54,789 nt of DNA. Source: Halorhabdus amylolytica (lineage in GTDB: Archaea; Halobacteriota; Halobacteria; Halobacteriales; Haloarculaceae). Positions 34,808 to 51,467 of this stretch are shown in pieces. How positions within the stretch are numbered: the stretch's first letter is position 1; the number at the start of each line of letters is the position of its first letter. The DNA lies in assembly GCF_004944975.1 (NCBI RefSeq), contig NZ_SPQG01000016.1:1010-55798 (forward strand). Direction: 5' to 3'. Below the pieces are notes generated by a model. The model worked only from the letters and a program-made list of their open reading frames with translations. It made no database searches and was not told the DNA's origin. Both the position numbers and the translations under genes were made by a program.

Positions 34808-36391
34808 TCAGGAAAGAATATCGGTATTGGGTTCGTTGAAGTTACTCGCTGCGATCATATCGTCGATACGTACGATAGTGACAGTCGCGTCAACAGCCGA
34901 ATCGATCGCGGCGTTTTTGACCCGGAGCGGTTCGACGACACCCCGTGCCGTCATTTCAGCGACGTCACCGGTAGTGGCGTCGAGACCTGTGGCGATAGCA
35001 CCCTCTGCGTGATGGGTCCGTAGTTCGGTGAGGATATCAATCGGATCTCGGCCGGCAGTTCTGGCCAGCGTTCGCGGGATTGTCTCGAGGGCGTTTGCGA
35101 ACGCTTCAACAGCGAGTTGCTCGCGGCCGTCGATCGCGTCTGCATCGGAACGTAATTGCCTGGCTAGTTCGATTTCAGACGCGCCGCCACCAGGAAGCAC
35201 AGCCCCCTCTTCAAGAGCGATTTCGACAGCATCAACCGCGTCTGTAACGGCAATTTCCATCTCTTTACCGACGTGTTCTGTCCCACTCCGTAGGAGGAGG
35301 GTGACTTCCCCAGGATCTGTATCGCTTGCGAACGCGACGTATTCGTCGTCGCCAAATATACGCCGTTCGACCGACCTAGCGTGGCCGAGATCACTATCTG
35401 AGAGTTCGTCGAGGTCAGAAACGACCCATGCATCGGTTGCACGCACTATAGCGCGCTGATCTTCTTTGTCGACCTGATCGAAAGCGAGGACCCCTTCCTC
35501 GGCAAGGAAATGCATGACCATATCGTCGACATTGCCGTCGACAAGGACAACGTCGGCTTCAGAAACTTCGTCGGCCATATCGCGAAATTGGCGTTCTTCT
35601 TCTTCAATGATCGTCTCGAACTGCCCCGGATCCGTGATATCGATCGCTGGATCGGACTGAGCGTCGTCGAATGTCAGATCCGAACCGTATACTAATACCG
35701 TTGGGTCATCGATATTGTAGGGCATGTGGTCGTGGATTCGCTCTTCCTCGATGAGTACACCTTCGAGAAGCTCCGACTCTTTGGGAGTACCGCTGCCGAC
35801 AGATTCGACCACGATATCGTCGCCATCTCGCTGGTCAACGGTACGAACTGCCTCCACGACGAGTGACGACAGATGATCTCTCGCCACGTCTACATTCTTG
35901 CCCGTCATTGCAGTGGCCGCGACCTCCTGGAGGATGCCGCTGTCAGCCGTAATATCGATGGCGATCTCCGGTAGCAGTTCGCGTACCCGGTCAATAGCCT
36001 GGTGATACCCACGTTCGATCGTCGTTGAGTGGATACCGTCGTCCAAGAGCCGTTCGGATTCCTTGAGCAGTGATCCCGTGAGGATGACTGCCGTCGTCGT
36101 CCCGTCCGAGACTTCTGCCTTTTGAGTACTCGCGACATCGGCCACGATCTTCCCGGCGGGATGTTCGATATCCATCATCGAGAGGACCGTCTCACCGTCG
36201 TTTGTGACAGCGAGTCCGCCACCCTGATCGGCTAGCATCTTGTCTCTGCCTCGCGGTCCGAGGGTGGTCTTGACCACATCAGCGACAGCTCTCCCAACGG
36301 CGATGTTCATCGAGCGTGCGTCTCGGTCGGACGCTCGATCGATATCTTCGGAAAGAATGTTTGAAGGATGCAGTCCCGTCCGTTCGCTCAT
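34808..36391 (-). CDS. Divergent group II chaperonin (thermosome) paralogue A
   Basis: A 527-residue thermosome-type subunit. The ATP site is largely intact: TLGPRGRDKML (43-53), TNDG (63-66), SDGTTTAV with D96, the catalytic Asp384 in AVTDAVDAV, and PGGGASEIELA. SDG replaces the usual GDG. The apical helical lid (DITDPGQFETIIEEEERQ, about 251-268) and the C-terminal VKNAAIDSAVDATVTIVRIDD are present. The usual GGM-rich C-terminal tail is missing. Housekeeping haloarchaeal thermosomes are closer to consensus, so this looks like an accessory subunit. It is divergent from the Tat-dependent sugar-binding lipoprotein gene, and codon use is more AT-rich than upstream genes. Confidence 0.92.
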   Translation of the reverse strand: MSERTGLHPSNILSEDIDRASDRDARSMNIAVGRAVADVVKTTLGPRGRDKMLADQGGGLAVTNDGETVLSMMDIEHPAGKIVADVASTQKAEVSDGTTTAVILTGSLLKESERLLDDGIHSTTIERGYHQAIDRVRELLPEIAIDITADSGILQEVAATAMTGKNVDVARDHLSSLVVEAVRTVDQRDGDDIVVESVGSGTPKESELLEGVLIEEERIHDHMPYNIDDPTVLVYGSDLTFDDAQSDPAIDITDPGQFETIIEEEERQFRDMADEVSEADVVLVDGNVDDMVMHFLAEEGVLAFDQVDKEDQRAIVRATDAWVVSDLDELSDSDLGHARSVERRIFGDDEYVAFASDTDPGEVTLLLRSGTEHVGKEMEIAVTDAVDAVEIALEEGAVLPGGGASEIELARQLRSDADAIDGREQLAVEAFANALETIPRTLARTAGRDPIDILTELRTHHAEGAIATGLDATTGDVAEMTARGVVEPLRVKNAAIDSAVDATVTIVRIDDMIAASNFNEPNTDILS

Positions 36392-36577: not shown

Positions 36578-38218
36578 ATGGTGGACAAATCAAATAGAAG
36601 ACCGAAAGATCCTGAACCGGATGACGAGGATTACTCACGTCGTGGTTTTATGGAGGCAGCCGCGACAGTGGGTGCAGTCGGTGCCGCTGGCCTCGCTGGC
36701 TGTGGCAGCGACGGTGGTGACGGTGGTGGCGGTGGTGACGGTGGTGGTGACGGCGGTGACGGTGGTGGCGACGGTGGCGACGGTGGCGACGGTGGTGACG
36801 GCGGTGATGGCTCTCAGCAAACGTCCGAACAGAACTTCGTGTTCTGGACGATGCGTGGTTATATCCCAGAAGTTTCTAATTCGATTCAAGATACAGCGAA
36901 GGCGTTCGAGGACGAAGCGAGTTCACCGGTAAACCTTACGACGAACGTGATCGTCTGGGCGCAGGTGTTCCCAAAATGGCAGTCGTCCATCCAAGGCCGT
37001 AACGCGCCAAACGTCAGCGAGATGGCCGGGGAGCACGCTGTCGACTTCGGCGACCAAGGAGTCAACGATCCGGTTACTGACATCTATAGCGACTTTGACG
37101 ACTGGTTCGAGACGATGGACTACTGGACCTCGTACGATGGCGAAAACTATGGTTTGCCGTGGTTCCTTGAAGTCCGTTCGTACCTCTACCGTATGGATCT
37201 CCTCAGTGACGCGGGCATCAACGAGGCGCCCCGGACGTGGGAGGACCTGATCAGTGCCGGCAAGACTATTCGTGATCAATTCGGTGAAGAGATCACGCCC
37301 ATTGGTCAGCCCGGGGGATCCGATTTCGCTACCGGCCAACAGATGTTTGACGCCACCCACAAATTCGGTGGCGACTTCTTCCAGTACGAGAACGGACAGT
37401 GGAATGTGACGCTCGACGAATCCGACGCAGTGTTCGGTCATCTTCTGCAAGCGAGTCTCGGCCAAGATCACTGGGACGTTGCCCCGCGTGGCTGGACCGG
37501 GATGGCAGGTTCAGACGTCCGCGCCCTTTTCCAGGAGGGGTCCGCTGCGATGTACCAGGCGAACGGCGAACCACTCCGTGCAGCCGTCAACAACCCCGAC
37601 GAAAAGGACAACCAGAACATTATCGAGCATACTGAGGTCATGACCGCGCCAACTGGTGCAGTAGAAGAGCGCGGCAACGCGGCCTTCATGGGGGGGTCCG
37701 TCGTGAGTCCGTTCTCAGAGAACGTCACGAAGAACAACGCACCCGACCTCAAGACCGAGTTCCTCGAGTACTGGATGAATCCCAGTACCCAGCAAAAAGT
37801 CTTCACCGCCGCGGCACCGATCTTCACACCGGTGCGTCAGTCTCAGACCGAAGCTCCGCCGTACGGCGGCGAGAACCCGACCGACCTCAAGCAAAGCTGG
37901 TTGGACGCAATGTCTGAACAAGCCGAAAAGGCTGTCCGCTACGGTGTTAGCGGCGCAAAACGTTGTTCACCGTTCCTCGGATCGACTGAAGGCAACACGA
38001 CTGGCTACTCGCAGGCATTCACCAGCATGATCGGCGCCGGTAATCCCCCATCCCAGATTCAGAACATGGCCAATCAGATGCGTAACACTGCCTCTGATCG
38101 GCTCGATTATACGCTCCAGGAACAGTCAGACGGTGTCTCGCTGGACAATCTCAACGACCAAGCTATGGCCTGGGCCGACGGAAGTGGCCCCCACCAGATC
38201 TGGAACCCGCTTGAGTAG
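36578..38218 (+). CDS. Sugar ABC transporter substrate-binding lipoprotein (Tat signal)
   Basis: A 546-residue family 1 solute-binding protein. The N-terminus has a twin-arginine motif (YSRRGFMEAA) and lipobox LAGC with lipidated Cys42. A pure Gly/Asp linker of about 35 residues (43-78) follows. The mature domain resembles maltose/oligosaccharide receptors: SGRNAPNVSEMAG-like sugar loop (QGRNAPNVSEMAGEH), GLPWFLEVRSYLYRMDLL, and AFMGGSVVSPF. The Tat route means it should fold in the cytoplasm before export. With the two following permeases and the MalK-type ATPase at 43440 it forms an importer; the nearby GH43 suggests xylo- or arabino-oligosaccharides. Confidence 0.92.
   Translation: MVDKSNRRPKDPEPDDEDYSRRGFMEAAATVGAVGAAGLAGCGSDGGDGGGGGDGGGDGGDGGGDGGDGGDGGDGGDGSQQTSEQNFVFWTMRGYIPEVSNSIQDTAKAFEDEASSPVNLTTNVIVWAQVFPKWQSSIQGRNAPNVSEMAGEHAVDFGDQGVNDPVTDIYSDFDDWFETMDYWTSYDGENYGLPWFLEVRSYLYRMDLLSDAGINEAPRTWEDLISAGKTIRDQFGEEITPIGQPGGSDFATGQQMFDATHKFGGDFFQYENGQWNVTLDESDAVFGHLLQASLGQDHWDVAPRGWTGMAGSDVRALFQEGSAAMYQANGEPLRAAVNNPDEKDNQNIIEHTEVMTAPTGAVEERGNAAFMGGSVVSPFSENVTKNNAPDLKTEFLEYWMNPSTQQKVFTAAAPIFTPVRQSQTEAPPYGGENPTDLKQSWLDAMSEQAEKAVRYGVSGAKRCSPFLGSTEGNTTGYSQAFTSMIGAGNPPSQIQNMANQMRNTASDRLDYTLQEQSDGVSLDNLNDQAMAWADGSGPHQIWNPLE
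36709..36810 (+). repeat. In-frame GGTGAC-type microsatellite
   Basis: Imperfect tandem GGTGGC/GGTGAC/GGCGAC units encode the Gly/Asp linker right after the lipidated cysteine. Such units can slip during replication, so linker length may vary between strains. Confidence 0.85.
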
Positions 38219-38452: not shown

Positions 38453-39457
38453 ATGTCACAATCAACACGAACCCAGACCGATCCGACATATTTTTATATT
38501 TGGATTCTGAATTTCTCTTCAATGGTGGCGGAAAAGTACAGGAGAATCATCGATGAAAGTGACATAATAAAAGAATATCAGTACTGGCTTTCATCGGAGT
38601 CAGTATGGGGGTGGGTGTTCCTCCTCCCAACGATTGCAGCTATCGGATTGGTGAATGTTTATCCTGTAATCAGGGCAATATATCTGAGTTTCACTGATTA
38701 CGACGGTATTACCGAACCCACCTGGATTGGACTGGAACATTACATCAGGATCTTCACCGGCTGGCCGGAATTTTGGCAGGTACTGCAGAACACTCTCGTA
38801 TGGGTGTTCGGGACAGTCGTTGTGATGCTCGTGTTGGGCATGGGATTTGCCGTTCTACTTAATCATGATTTCCCCGGGAGCGGAATAGCTACGTCGCTGC
38901 TGTTGCTCCCGTGGGTGATGCCGTATATTGCTGTCGCCCTCAACTGGCAATGGATGTACCGTTATCAGACCGGGGTGTTCAACGGTCTTCTCCAACTCGC
39001 CGGTTTGGAGCGGGTCCTTTGGCTCGGTAGCGGCAAGTTCGCTCTCGCCGCGGCAATGGTCGGTTGGATCTGGCGCAACTTCCCATTCTTTATGATCAGT
39101 TTCCTCTCAGCCATGAAAGCAATCCCGACCGAACTCTATGAAGCGGCACTCGTCGATGGCTCTTCGCGATGGGAGCTGTTCCGTCATATCACTTTCCCGT
39201 ATCTTCAGCCGATTCTCATCGTCACAACGCTTTTGATGAGTCTTTGGACGTTCAACAACTTCACTATGATATTTGTCCTCACCGGCGGCGGGCCGGGACT
39301 CTCTTCGATGGTTCTCCCGGTGTATGTCTACCGGAAGGCATTCATCACTGGCGATATGGGGATGGCCGCCGCTATCGGCATCGTAATGATGCTGATAATG
39401 CTAAGCTACGGGTTGGTCTATCTCCGGTTCTACCGGGCAGATATCGGACAGAAATGA
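38453..39457 (+). CDS. Sugar ABC transporter permease (MalF/UgpA type)
   Basis: About 334 residues with six membrane helices from VFLLPTIAAIGLVNVYPVI onward. The EAA loop that contacts the ATPase is EAALVDGSSRWELFRHITFP. The start is uncertain. The ATG at 38453 gives a polar MSQSTRTQTD leader. An internal ATG at 38522 (MVAEKYRRII) is preceded at 22-31 nt by TTTTTATATT, which could be a TATA box for a leaderless message. It follows the lipoprotein gene after 234 AT-rich bases with no other gene. Confidence 0.9.
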   Translation: MSQSTRTQTDPTYFYIWILNFSSMVAEKYRRIIDESDIIKEYQYWLSSESVWGWVFLLPTIAAIGLVNVYPVIRAIYLSFTDYDGITEPTWIGLEHYIRIFTGWPEFWQVLQNTLVWVFGTVVVMLVLGMGFAVLLNHDFPGSGIATSLLLLPWVMPYIAVALNWQWMYRYQTGVFNGLLQLAGLERVLWLGSGKFALAAAMVGWIWRNFPFFMISFLSAMKAIPTELYEAALVDGSSRWELFRHITFPYLQPILIVTTLLMSLWTFNNFTMIFVLTGGGPGLSSMVLPVYVYRKAFITGDMGMAAAIGIVMMLIMLSYGLVYLRFYRADIGQK

Positions 39458-39468
39458 TGTGATCATCC

Positions 39469-40374
39469 ATGGCAACTGAAACTGATCCAACCACAGGCAC
39501 TGCACCGGGCGAACCAGACACCCTGTTTCAGCGGCTCAAGCAAAACGACACCGTCAGACTTCTCAGTTTCGAGGGGCTCGTCTGGGGGCTGGTATTGATC
39601 GTTTTGTTCCCGATCATCTGGATGATGCTCTCGTCGTTCAGTGCTGCCTCACTCAGTGACATCGTCGAAAATGGTCTCGGTTGGTATCTCTCCTCGATGT
39701 CCCTTGAGAACTATGTGGATATGGTGGAGTCAACCCGTTTCGTGACGTGGTTCAAAAACAGCGTGATCGTTTCCCTCGTCAGCACAGCTCTCAGCATTGT
39801 CATTGCGACGTTTGGGGGCTATAGTATCGGCCGACTGCGGTACAAGGGTCGATCAGCTTTCGCGGTTTTCTTGTTGATTACCCAGATGTTCCCGTACGCA
39901 GTTATCATCATTCCCCTGTTCATAATCTTCCGTAATTTAGGACTCTTCAACAGCCTTACTGGACTTATCGTCGCCTATGTCGCGTTCACACTTCCGTTCA
40001 CAACGTGGATGTTGCGGGGATTCTTCGAAAACCTCCCCGAACAGCTGGAAGAGGCGGCTATGGTGGATGGTAGTACCCGTGTCGGGGCGGTCGTCCGTGT
40101 CATCTTGCCACTGTCAGCTCCGGCTGTTGCGACGACTTTCATCTTTGGCTGGTTGCTTGCGTGGAACGAGTTCCTGTTCGCATTGGTACTTATCAACGAT
40201 CAGGCACTGAAGACCTTGCCCCCGGGGATCCAGCAGTGGGTCGGCCAGAACACGATTAATTGGGGACTTATCATGGCTGGTGCGACTACAGTAACGGTAC
40301 CACTGTTACTTTTGTTCGCGTTCCTCCAACAGTACTTCGTACAGGGATTGGCAGAAGGTGCGGTCAAGAGTTGA
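39469..40374 (+). CDS. Sugar ABC transporter permease (MalG/UgpE type)
   Basis: A 301-residue inner permease with a cytoplasmic N-terminus and six helices. The EAA loop is EEAAMVDGSTRVGAVVRVIL, matching the partner permease, followed by the FIFGWLLAWNEFLFALVL helix. It begins 11 bp after the stop of the first permease gene, so the two are co-transcribed and the products pair in the membrane. The ATPase subunit is not in this operon but on the opposite strand at 43440. Confidence 0.93.
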   Translation: MATETDPTTGTAPGEPDTLFQRLKQNDTVRLLSFEGLVWGLVLIVLFPIIWMMLSSFSAASLSDIVENGLGWYLSSMSLENYVDMVESTRFVTWFKNSVIVSLVSTALSIVIATFGGYSIGRLRYKGRSAFAVFLLITQMFPYAVIIIPLFIIFRNLGLFNSLTGLIVAYVAFTLPFTTWMLRGFFENLPEQLEEAAMVDGSTRVGAVVRVILPLSAPAVATTFIFGWLLAWNEFLFALVLINDQALKTLPPGIQQWVGQNTINWGLIMAGATTVTVPLLLLFAFLQQYFVQGLAEGAVKS

Positions 40375-42510: not shown

Positions 42511-43221
42511 TCAGACTTGCCAGGTAATGCCCGAGAGGAACAACGCGGCCATTGTTGGAGGAAGCACCGAGAGGACACTTCTCTTTCTGTCGAGTTCGTA
42601 CAACCGACCGACGATTGGCAAGATCAAAAACCCAATAACGGCCCAGCCAACCATCCTGAGAACTCGGATGGCATACATTTGTGGAGTCGTTAAAATCTCA
42701 CGGCGATACTGCGCTAACTCCGTCGCAATTGTTGTCGCGTTGGCCGTGGGTTCGGACGGAAGGGGATACGGTTCCCCAGAGACAGTGAGTGCCAAAACGA
42801 TTCCAATCAGGAATAATGGGATGAATAGAACCGAAACGTATCCTCCAAGTTTAAATACCGCTGGACTGTACTGTCGTTCATCACTCAGAAATCCTGCAAT
42901 GGCACCAACGCCACCGAAGTACAGGAAAACCGCTAACAGGACGAATGAAGAAGTATACACGAAAACAACAATCATTGTAACTGCGGCTCCGTCAAAGAGG
43001 TATCCACTTATTATGACAATCGGTTCCATCACATAGATCAATATTGTCCGCACGAGGATGTGCAAAAGGAGACCAAGCATCGGACCCGCCCAACCGTAAT
43101 CAAGAATAACAGATGTAACGTCGTCAATGGTTTGTGCGCGCCGGAGCGCTCGCCAAGGTGCGAGCGGTTCGAAATCGATCTCGAGAAGTCCGATATCGAG
43201 AAATGGCGAATTGTCGGTCAT
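42511..43221 (-). CDS. Integral membrane protein of unknown function
   Basis: A 236-residue protein with five or six hydrophobic segments (starting near residue 44, then about 67-82, 84-104, 125-146, 190-206 and 222-234). A soluble N-terminus (MTDNSPFLDIGLLEIDFEP) and a polar loop with ATELAQYRREI are also seen. I cannot assign a family; a Yip1-like fold is conceivable. It converges on GH43 and lies downstream of the MalK-type gene in the same direction. The 290 bp between it and GH43 contain no gene I can support. Confidence 0.75.
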   Translation of the reverse strand: MTDNSPFLDIGLLEIDFEPLAPWRALRRAQTIDDVTSVILDYGWAGPMLGLLLHILVRTILIYVMEPIVIISGYLFDGAAVTMIVVFVYTSSFVLLAVFLYFGGVGAIAGFLSDERQYSPAVFKLGGYVSVLFIPLFLIGIVLALTVSGEPYPLPSEPTANATTIATELAQYRREILTTPQMYAIRVLRMVGWAVIGFLILPIVGRLYELDRKRSVLSVLPPTMAALFLSGITWQV

Positions 43222-43439: not shown

Positions 43440-44588
43440 TTAATCGTCGGCTGCAATCCGTTCTACACGACCAGGGGACTCTTCGTTGAGCACGTTTAAC
43501 CCGGTCTCCTCATCGAAGAGGTGGATTTGTTGGTCATCAAAAGTCAGGTAAATATGTTCGCCGACATCGGGATGATAGTTGGGATCGACAAATGTGACGT
43601 ACTCACGTCCCTCTGTATCGGCTTCCGGTAGGTCGAAGTACATGAGATTATCCCGGCCCAGTGGCTCGATGAGTTCAACCACAACCTCAAAGGTATTCGC
43701 ATCAGATCCGACCTCCGCCAATTGGAGGTCTTCAGGCCGAACGCCCAGCGTATAGTGTGTGCCCCCGTGGTCGTCAACTCTTGTGGCTACTTCCTGAGAG
43801 AATTGGTATTCGAAGTCCCCCGTCAGAGTATTGTCCCCTGGATCGTAGACCACATCGAAGATATTCATGCTGGGGCTACCGATGAACTGTCCCACGAAAA
43901 GATTATTCGGTTCTTGATAGACTTCTGTCGGTGTTCCGACCTGCTGGAGAACACCCTGATGGAGAATAGCGATCCGATCAGACATCGTCATCGCTTCCTC
44001 TTGATCGTGTGTTACATAAATCGTGGTCGTTTCGAGATCCTGTTGAATCCGGTTGAGTTCGGTTCGCATGTGTTTGCGAAGTTTCGCATCGAGATTAGAA
44101 AGCGGCTCGTCGAACAGGAAGACCTCCGGCTCACGGACAATCGCACGGCCGGTCGCGACACGCTGTTTCTGACCGCCGGACAGCTGCTTCGGTCTGTCAT
44201 CGAGAAGTTCCTTGATATCCATCATCTCCGCCGCCTGATTGACGCGCTTCTTGATTTCCTCCTTCGAAAGATCCGTCGAACGTTTCAGTCCGAAAGCCAT
44301 ATTCTCGTAGACACTTAAATGAGGATACAACGCATAGTTTTGGAACACCATTGCGACATCACGCTTGCGGGGCGGTAGATAGTTAACGACTTCACCGGCC
44401 AGACGGATCTCGCCGTCGGTGACGCTCTCAAGCCCCGCCAACATCCGAAGCGTCGTCGATTTACCGGATCCACTGGGCCCAACCAGGGTGAGAAACTCGC
44501 CGTCTTTGACTTCGAGATCTAGATCTTTGACAGCGTCTATATCACCTTCATACGACTTTGATACTGTGTCGAACGTGATGGTTCCCAT
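43440..44588 (-). CDS. Sugar ABC transporter ATPase (MalK/UgpC type)
   Basis: A 382-residue CUT1-type ATPase. Walker A is GPSGSGKST, the Q-loop is in MVFQNYALYPHLSVYENMAFG, the signature is LSGGQKQR, Walker B is VFLFDEPLSNLDAKLR and the switch His is in YVTHDQEEAM. A C-terminal TOBE-type regulatory domain (from about residue 240, including TLGVRPEDLQLAE) is present. It should energise the permeases at 38453 and 39469, although it is encoded on the other strand. The chaperonin B gene ends 109 bp upstream in the same direction. Confidence 0.94.
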   Translation of the reverse strand: MGTITFDTVSKSYEGDIDAVKDLDLEVKDGEFLTLVGPSGSGKSTTLRMLAGLESVTDGEIRLAGEVVNYLPPRKRDVAMVFQNYALYPHLSVYENMAFGLKRSTDLSKEEIKKRVNQAAEMMDIKELLDDRPKQLSGGQKQRVATGRAIVREPEVFLFDEPLSNLDAKLRKHMRTELNRIQQDLETTTIYVTHDQEEAMTMSDRIAILHQGVLQQVGTPTEVYQEPNNLFVGQFIGSPSMNIFDVVYDPGDNTLTGDFEYQFSQEVATRVDDHGGTHYTLGVRPEDLQLAEVGSDANTFEVVVELIEPLGRDNLMYFDLPEADTEGREYVTFVDPNYHPDVGEHIYLTFDDQQIHLFDEETGLNVLNEESPGRVERIAADD

Positions 44589-44697: not shown

Positions 44698-46401
44698 TTA
44701 GTCGTCCTGGACGGTCATCGCAGTATCGAATTCCTCTTGATCCATCTGGTCGGATTTCCGCTCAGGCTCGAACGGCTTCCGGTTGTACACGATATCGTCG
44801 ATTCGAATATAGCTGTTAGCGAGCTCGACTGCGCGGACGAGTGCGTTCGTCCGAACGAGCATCGGGTCCAGCGCGTTGTTCTCTGCGACGACGTCGTCAT
44901 CGACAGTTCCGTCAACACCGATTCCGGCACGATCATTGCTGTTGGCATGTGCTGAGCGGATTGCAAGGAGCTGATCGGTCGGATCGGCTCCCGCATTCCG
45001 AGCCATCGTCGCGGGAATGGTCTCAAGCACGTTCGCGAATGCTTCGACAACAAGCTGTCGCCGGTCGTCAATCCGTGGCGCAAGCTCGCGAACTGATGCT
45101 GCCGCAGCCATTTCCGGAGCGCCACCACCAGGTAATGCCTGTGGACGCTTGATCGCCGCCCGCACCCCGTTAAGGCCATGCTTGATGCGGCGTTGGGCTT
45201 CCTCAGCCATTCGCTTGCTTCCACCTCGAACAGTTATCGTCATGGCATCGGGCTTCTCAGGAGCTATCCCCTCAACGCGGAGCCATTCGTCGGACTCACC
45301 AATATCTTGGTTCGGCACTGTGATCGATGTCTTGCCAAGCCAGTTGTGTTTGATCGGTTCCGTCGGGACGATAGCCCCTTGGACGGTTCCACCACTCGCG
45401 TGGGCGAGGAACCGCAAGTGATGGTCGGGGACATCTTGAACCGTTATGATGCCGGCATCAGCGAGCGTACTTGCGTCACTTACTGAGACTGCCTGTCCGG
45501 AAAAGACTGCAACGACGCCAGCATCGGCAAGTTCGGTAACGAGGTCGTTAAACCACTTCGTCTTCCGGGTAGCTGTATCTCGGTGGACATTCGCGACGTC
45601 ATCTCCCGTCAACCGCATCTGCTGGTTCGGCGAGGGGGACTCAAATTTGCCTGAGACGAACAAAGCCGTCCCCTCCAGTGGCGCAGCAGGGTATGGGACG
45701 ATTGGTTCCTTCGGAATGTATTTCCCTTCGAATATAGTCGAATCCGTGACGTCGCCACCTGGTATAGCCTGGGTATCAATCAATGAAAGATCGACAGTAC
45801 CCGCCTCCCAGTCTGCAACGCGAATGGCGGCGTCCACGACGTGTTCGCTAAGCCCCTCAAGCGGCCAAGAAACCACGTCTCCCCCTGTCATAGCAGCAGT
45901 CGCTATCATCTCCATCCGGTCACGATCGATCTCTCCATCGGACGCAAGTGGTATCGATATCTCGTCCCAGGTCTCGAGGGTGCGCTGAGCGGCGATCGAG
46001 AAACCGTCGATAATGGTCGTCGCTGTGATCCCTTCCTCGATCAATTCAAATCCAGTTTCGATCAACTCCCCACTCAATACGGTTGTCGTCGTCGTCCCGT
46101 CGCCGTATTCGTCTTCCTGTGCCCGGAGTGTCGATATAAAGTGTTCTACAACAGGATCGCTAGAGATACTTTCAAATTCATTGATGATCGCACCGCCGTC
46201 ATTACTGACAAAGCCGCGTATTTCTTCACTTTCCTGTTCTCGGACGACGAGAGTATCTAGCCCTCGCGGCCCGAGCGTTCCTTTGACTGCATTGACGATC
46301 TCGTTGACTGTGTCGAGGACAATCTCGTTCTTTTGTGCTTCGTCATACCGACGACAGCCAAAAACCGGCCACTCCTGTTCGTTCGTGTTCATATGTATCA
46401 T
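44698..46401 (-). CDS. Highly divergent group II chaperonin paralogue B, catalytic Asp replaced
   Basis: A 567-residue thermosome-like protein. It keeps TLGPRGLDTLVV (42-53), SNDGG (66-70), GDGTTTTTV with D101, and LPGGGAPEMAAAASV, so nucleotide binding is likely. The water-activating Asp of chaperonins (D398 in GroEL) should lie in the helix before PGGG. Here that helix reads QRRIKHGLNGVR, with His408 at the Asp position. The lid region (about 268-288) is also unlike the consensus, and there is no GGM tail. It may be an ATP-binding, poorly hydrolysing partner of paralogue A or of the main thermosome. A second ATG three codons in (46392) is an equally good start. Confidence 0.88.
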   Translation of the reverse strand: MIHMNTNEQEWPVFGCRRYDEAQKNEIVLDTVNEIVNAVKGTLGPRGLDTLVVREQESEEIRGFVSNDGGAIINEFESISSDPVVEHFISTLRAQEDEYGDGTTTTTVLSGELIETGFELIEEGITATTIIDGFSIAAQRTLETWDEISIPLASDGEIDRDRMEMIATAAMTGGDVVSWPLEGLSEHVVDAAIRVADWEAGTVDLSLIDTQAIPGGDVTDSTIFEGKYIPKEPIVPYPAAPLEGTALFVSGKFESPSPNQQMRLTGDDVANVHRDTATRKTKWFNDLVTELADAGVVAVFSGQAVSVSDASTLADAGIITVQDVPDHHLRFLAHASGGTVQGAIVPTEPIKHNWLGKTSITVPNQDIGESDEWLRVEGIAPEKPDAMTITVRGGSKRMAEEAQRRIKHGLNGVRAAIKRPQALPGGGAPEMAAAASVRELAPRIDDRRQLVVEAFANVLETIPATMARNAGADPTDQLLAIRSAHANSNDRAGIGVDGTVDDDVVAENNALDPMLVRTNALVRAVELANSYIRIDDIVYNRKPFEPERKSDQMDQEEFDTAMTVQDD

Positions 46402-49540: not shown

Positions 49541-49918
49541 ATGAGCAGCGACACCGTCGAGATAACCTGCATCGCCTGCCCGGTCGGCTGTGACGTCTCC
49601 CTGGAGGTCGATGACGGCGAGATCCAGTCGATCGAGGGCAATACCTGCCCGAGAGGTGCGGATTATGCGAAAGAGGAATACCGAAACCCGACCCGTATCC
49701 TTCCGACGACCGCTCGGGTCGCGGGTGGCGTCCTGCCGCGCGTGCCCGTGAAGTCAGCAGAACCGATGCCCAAACCCGAGTTAGAGGACGCGATGGCCGA
49801 GATCGCTGCAGTCGAAGTCGACGCACCGATCGAACTCGGCGACGTGATCGTCGAGAACGTCTGTGACACCGGCGTCGACATCGTTGCAACCCGGGACCTC
49901 CCGGCCACAGAAGAGTGA
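49541..49918 (+). CDS. DUF1667 cysteine-rich protein, subunit 3 of the module
   Basis: A 125-residue protein with an N-terminal four-cysteine motif, CIACPVGC plus TCPRGADYA (C10, C13, C17, C36), that probably holds an iron-sulfur cluster or zinc. The PTRILPTTARVAGGVLPRVPVKS stretch and the C-terminal GDVIVENVCDTGVDIVATRDL are typical of DUF1667. The gene always travels with the two flavoproteins above in bacteria, next to glpK. The ATG directly follows the preceding TAG stop, with AAGGAGGAG as ribosome site. The role is presumably electron transfer (inference). Confidence 0.9.
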   Translation: MSSDTVEITCIACPVGCDVSLEVDDGEIQSIEGNTCPRGADYAKEEYRNPTRILPTTARVAGGVLPRVPVKSAEPMPKPELEDAMAEIAAVEVDAPIELGDVIVENVCDTGVDIVATRDLPATEE

Positions 49919-50034
49919 GCCACACTGATGTGAGTAGTTTCTCTTTGCATATCAATCGGATACAGGAAAGCCCAACTCGAATGCCATACTGCACGCCTCT
50001 CTAACGAGAAACCGGTGCGTTTATAGGCTGAACA

Positions 50035-50072
50035 GGCGCAATACCACGGCCTTCAGGCCGTGGATACGCGCC
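50035..50072. mobile_element. IS200/IS605-type terminal palindrome (PATE-like remnant)
   Basis: A nested perfect palindrome: CCACGGCC (50044-50051), loop TTCA, GGCCGTGG (50056-50063), framed by GGCGC (50035-50039) and GCGCC (50068-50072). Such hairpins mark ends of haloarchaeal IS200/IS605 elements and of their short non-coding relatives (PATEs). No transposase gene is present. The truncated glycerol kinase begins about 55 bp downstream. Confidence 0.6.
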
Positions 50073-50126
50073 GTCACTTTGGGAAAAGTCCACCATTCAA
50101 ATACCGGTCCCGAGTTTCCAATAGTG

Positions 50127-51356
<1,230 letters not shown>

Positions 51357-51467
51357 TAGATACTGCACGGCACTGTCGGACGTACCACGATGAGGTCCCA
51401 AAGCGGTGTAGTGAGATTTCGGCCAAAGCCAAGAACTCGAAGAGTGATTGCGAGAGGTCCGGCCGGG

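Follow-up and report, generated by a model that had tools for sequence, protein, structure and literature searches.

A haloarchaeal chaperonin clade that lacks the catalytic aspartate in about half of its members is encoded beside a sugar ABC importer

The usual view of prokaryotic chaperonins is of general folding machines that cycle with ATP. The stretch of DNA analysed here (the window; 54,789 nucleotides of a Halorhabdus amylolytica contig) encodes a divergent chaperonin, B, with histidine at the position of the catalytic aspartate. Is this histidine a peculiarity of one gene or the mark of a family, and what could such a protein do? The gene and the sites that bear on the question are as follows.

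44698-46401, minus strand: chaperonin B, a divergent Cpn60_TCP1 protein of 567 amino acids with a group II fold (PF00118, E=6.5e-91)
45180-45178, minus strand: His408 codon, CAT, at the catalytic Asp position (Mm-cpn D386), from the alignment and its column states
46261-46275, minus strand: LGPRG nucleotide-binding motif, residues 43-47 (G44, P45 and G47 invariant in 21/21 B proteins)
46195-46203, minus strand: NDG motif, residues 67-69 (N67 and G69 invariant in the B clade)
46087-46104, minus strand: GDGTTT motif, residues 100-105 (G100, D101, G102 and T104 invariant in 21/21)
45121-45129, minus strand: GGG motif, residues 425-427 (G427 invariant; G425 replaced by Ala in 8/21)
45547-45651, minus strand: lid or helical-protrusion segment, residues 251-285, apparently eroded when scored for canonical near-invariant residues

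Chaperonin B passes the threshold of the TCP-1/cpn60 superfamily (PF00118, 305.9 bits against a gathering score of 34.3) and falls below the curated thermosome cut-offs of NF041082, NF041083 and TIGR02339 (287.9 vs 450, 266.5 vs 400 and 286.5 vs 671.1, respectively). The structure prediction proposed with the initial annotation was made for B alone and recovered the three-domain group II chaperonin fold, with a mean pLDDT of 82; among the group II subunits matched, the model is closest to ADP-bound Mm-cpn (3rus, TM 0.83/0.91). Residues 257-265 of the lid form a low-confidence region of this model.

The reading of His408 as the residue at the group II catalytic Asp position holds: a phmmer alignment to 3rus, with the position counted along the alignment, pairs it with residue 386 of the M. 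maripaludis chaperonin, and the helix segment QRRIKHGLNGVR offers no other Asp that could occupy the site. The companion claims, that the remaining ATP-site motifs are kept and that a second chaperonin of the window, paralogue A, retains its Asp, were borne out as well: LGPRG, NDGG, GDGTTT and PGGGAPE are all present in B, and A has Asp384 where B has His408. By the features of an active group II ATPase, window B has the nucleotide-binding residues and lacks the catalytic Asp. The His408 codon is a single base away from an Asp codon (CAT vs GAT), and a single-base assembly error may explain the histidine in the window gene alone. The loss of Asp in the relatives of B is independent of whether His408 is real.

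These relatives form a rare and scattered group. B-type proteins, sharing about 40-45% identity and standing well apart from ordinary thermosomes, occur in 17/392 genomes of the order: 4/146 in the window's family, 9/125 in another and 4/28, plus one split copy, in a third. Searches within single families added two further B-bearing genomes, a profile scan of named genomes found ten haloarchaeal loci with B (in Haladaptatus, Halovivax, Halegenticoccus, Natrialba, Natronorubrum, Halogeometricum and HArc-gm2), and a plasmid search added a locus in Haloarcula marina. A search of the genome contigs with B as a single protein returned no relatives; a search for phage matches gave none. Several copies are plasmid-borne and Haladaptatus carries two distinct versions in different parts of the tree; from this, and from the patchy distribution, we infer that the locus has spread by horizontal transfer. 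In one genome (G156) the B orthologue is broken by a frameshift (L104 8727-10318), with the remaining genes of the locus present. Divergent copies are rare by comparison: the 26 ordinary haloarchaeal genomes surveyed have 2-4 chaperonins each, mostly canonical, with one short partial match as the exception.

Histidine is not fixed among the B orthologues, a point that the initial annotation had left to an alignment: the catalytic column of 21 B-clade proteins reads D in ten, V in five, G and T in two each, and A and H in one each, the single H being that of window B. The Asp is thus replaced in 11/21, as against its presence in 44/44 canonical thermosomes sampled. On the tree the replacements fall in separate B lineages. 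A two-state count that allows regain gives a minimum of four changes, and counting residues gives seven changes, one of them in the outgroup; the latter figure, together with the positions on the tree, makes five or six the natural reading. The catalytic Asp has therefore probably been lost independently five or six times, and at least four.

The core residues of the nucleotide site are kept. T42, G44, P45, G47, D49, N67 and G69 are invariant in 21/21 B proteins, as are G100, D101, G102, T104, G427, N469 and D535, and D68 of the NDG motif is missing only in two Natronorubrum-type proteins, both of which also lack the catalytic Asp. The built-in lid, in contrast, appears from its sequence to be eroded: none of its 11 canonical near-invariant residues is kept in at least 90% of the clade, and residues 251-285 keep a mean of 0.11 of the canonical near-invariant letters, vs 0.38-0.65 elsewhere in B. 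The invariant binding residues, the repeated loss of Asp and the apparently eroded lid together support the proposal that B is a chaperonin that would bind but not hydrolyse ATP, which is the part of the original functional reading that stands. With the Asp retained in about half of the clade, B can probably do its work without hydrolysis, as opposed to hydrolysis being selected against; the D-bearing members (10/21) may hydrolyse ATP.

That the whole gene is simply decaying, with the Asp lost by neutral erosion and no function left, would fit a fast-evolving, patchy gene with a frameshift-split copy in G156. The clade is under purifying selection, however: pairwise dN/dS is 0.085-0.206, and catalytically dead and D-bearing pairs overlap in their values. 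With dN/dS at 0.09-0.21 even when dead pairs are included, the ATP-binding residues invariant and B never missing where its neighbouring binding protein is found, decay is very improbable, and the pseudogene reading is disfavoured by dN/dS.

The neighbours of B give the more specific clue. The genes concerned, as they lie in the window, are listed here.

36578-38218, plus strand: solute-binding lipoprotein (SBP) with a Tat lipobox signal, SRRGFMEAAATVGAVGAAGLAGC; found in the same 17 genomes as B
38453-39457, plus strand: ABC permease 1 (PF00528), at every B locus
39469-40374, plus strand: ABC permease 2 (PF00528), at every B locus
42511-43221, minus strand: TMhyp, a membrane protein of 236 amino acids; found in the same 17 genomes as B
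43440-44588, minus strand: UgpC/MalK-type ABC ATPase (NCBIfam NF008653, 456 bits, cut-off 432), at every B locus
34808-36391, minus strand: chaperonin paralogue A, with Asp384 kept

Judged by sequence family, the genes beside B have the make-up of a CUT1 sugar ABC importer: an SBP, two BPD_transp_1 permeases and a MalK/UgpC ATPase. All of these and TMhyp lie near B (within about 10 kb) in 24/24 fetched loci, which represent 21 distinct genomes besides the window; gene order differs among loci, and the gene set is the same throughout. Profiles for TMhyp and for the SBP match exactly the 17 B genomes (392 and 332 genomes searched, respectively), and the SBP family was not found apart from B and TMhyp. 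As B, SBP and TMhyp are linked and move together, this co-occurrence counts as one association and not as independent events. The SBP has no Pfam match and only a weak MalE match, below the cut-off, and its identity comes from the annotation of homologues; the Tat lipobox pattern is present in the SBP of 20/22 loci and in that of the window. TMhyp, predicted to be all-helical, matches no Pfam or NCBIfam family over the cut-off and no fold in the PDB. One cassette (G065) has two tandem SBP genes (L097 14548-17750), and the matched part of the second is interrupted by a TAG. Enzymes of families GH42 and GH3 are frequent near B, not universal, and a xylose dehydrogenase, an alpha-glucuronidase and a xylanase lie close to some copies, which makes a xylan-type oligosaccharide a plausible substrate. 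Elsewhere in the window (about 49900-51400, plus strand) a glycerol kinase-like gene extends over several reading frames, a sign that the gene is broken or that the assembly is in error.

Evolutionary distances correlate across all six cassette genes (r 0.83-0.96), and linkage with joint horizontal transfer could by itself be the source of much of this correlation. In partial correlations B is tied most strongly to the SBP (0.51, jackknife 0.44-0.56); the value for B and TMhyp is negative (-0.45), so direct co-evolution of these two is not favoured.

This pattern would be accounted for if one family of haloarchaeal sugar ABC importers had taken over a group II chaperonin paralogue as a permanent accessory, and we regard that description of B as evenly balanced between right and wrong. 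B would form ATP-stabilised rings that hold or assemble a client and do not cycle. The likeliest client would be the fast-evolving SBP, held or assembled before Tat export; as a twin-arginine lipoprotein it would need to fold in the cytoplasm ahead of export, and recruitment of B to the membrane beside the importer may be the part played by TMhyp. Tat export in haloarchaea is thought to permit chaperone-assisted folding in the cytoplasm (PMC3235422). Combined with the B-SBP correlation, this background for the SBP as client is suggestive only. SBPs that are Tat lipoproteins abound in haloarchaea, as a rule with no private chaperonin, so the Tat argument leaves the importer's need for B unexplained.

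The main rival to a dedicated importer chaperonin is a mixed ring with canonical subunits, in which B would be a client-specific adaptor within the housekeeping thermosome (alpha/beta, contigs C24 and C21), staying ATP-loaded while its neighbours hydrolyse. Canonical subunits are available in the window genome and in every haloarchaeal genome surveyed, and in B both the equatorial nucleotide site and Asp535, on the C-terminal strand, are kept. In the mixed thermosome of T. acidophilum, which serves as a precedent, a hydrolysis-deficient subunit was modelled as permanently ATP-loaded beside a cycling neighbour (PMC5983026). The parts of B that would have to fit such a ring are nevertheless the altered ones: the lid must close with its neighbours, yet that of B appears eroded, and the stem loop exceeds the canonical one by four residues and has clade-specific charged residues. 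The chaperonin stem loop sits at the subunit interface. Overall, we consider an adaptor role of this kind rather unlikely.

A further departure would be that B has ceased to be a chaperone and serves the importer as a structural component or nucleotide sensor, for instance as an ATP-bound cytoplasmic scaffold held by TMhyp and gating UgpC. Such a part would not need to retain the Asp; the apparent loss of both lid and hydrolysis and the strict co-occurrence of B with membrane components fit too. It is at odds with the full chaperonin domain architecture, apical domain included, and with the SBP, not UgpC, giving the closest co-evolution signal; we think it improbable.

Paralogue A belongs to the gene cluster of B, adjoins the SBP gene and keeps Asp384, and the initial annotation had accordingly suggested that B might act in a mixed ring with A. 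As a general function this did not hold up, the distribution of A, once tested, not being supportive. A is nearest to the thermosome on contig C24 of its own genome (49% identity), and a search of 142 genomes from the family of the window turned up no close orthologue of it (E<=1e-160), though this family has other B-bearing genomes; it is also absent from the conserved neighbours of B. An A/B ring is hence not a conserved arrangement and, while it could still hold in the window genome alone, we give it very little credence.

The preferred reading, a chaperonin dedicated to one importer, can be extended. A further twelve divergent chaperonins encoded on plasmids, at ten loci (L107-L116), were aligned; 9/12 have a non-Asp residue (K, T, N, R, A, S or E) at the aligned position, a figure to be taken as a lead and not as a rate, since the twelve were picked for divergence and their alignment is less certain. 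They belong to particular operons for transport or catabolism, with genes for formamidase, a polyamine ABC transporter, a sugar ABC transporter (here two chaperonins adjoin), GH4 or acyl-CoA. It is conceivable, if speculative, that B and TMhyp constitute a membrane-docked, ATP-bound, non-cycling chaperonin, obligate in one class of importer (a chaperonin-ABC transporter machine), and that this machine belongs to a broader group of haloarchaeal chaperonins, each dedicated to its operon, in which the catalytic Asp is lost.

The literature searched, which is thin on subscription journals, holds no description of the B family or its transporter link, and no natural archaeal clade of Asp-losing chaperonins tied to an ABC importer. 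The B clade makes two matters testable: (i) what a chaperonin does without hydrolysis, and (ii) whether the Tat-exported binding proteins of haloarchaea need private chaperones.

Among known systems, the thermosome (Mm-cpn, NF041082/NF041083) shares with B the Cpn60_TCP1 family, the full equatorial, intermediate and apical fold and the nucleotide-binding motifs. B differs in falling far under the curated cut-offs, in the missing catalytic Asp and lost lid residues, and in its link to a transporter. The laboratory mutant Mm-cpn D386A, altered at the same residue as B, binds ATP and does not hydrolyse it (PMC5019054), whereas the change in B is natural, recurrent in the clade and accompanied by apparent loss of the lid. 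CUT1-type importers (MalK/UgpC) resemble the B locus in their SBP, two permeases and UgpC-type ATPase; at the B locus the SBP has no Pfam match, and a chaperonin and TMhyp are always present.

The vertebrate BBS proteins are a known case of chaperonin paralogues that have lost catalytic residues, and devotion to one dedicated assembly would be a theme common to these chaperonin-like proteins and B. Like B, the BBS/MKKS paralogues (BBS6, BBS10, BBS12) keep ATP-binding signatures while their catalytic residues have degenerated (PMC2846930). The likeness is one of function alone, the BBS proteins being eukaryotic and B a haloarchaeal paralogue at an ABC importer locus. A clade that has repeatedly lost its catalytic Asp, yet is kept only with one transporter, would be an archaeal counterpart of the BBS chaperonins.
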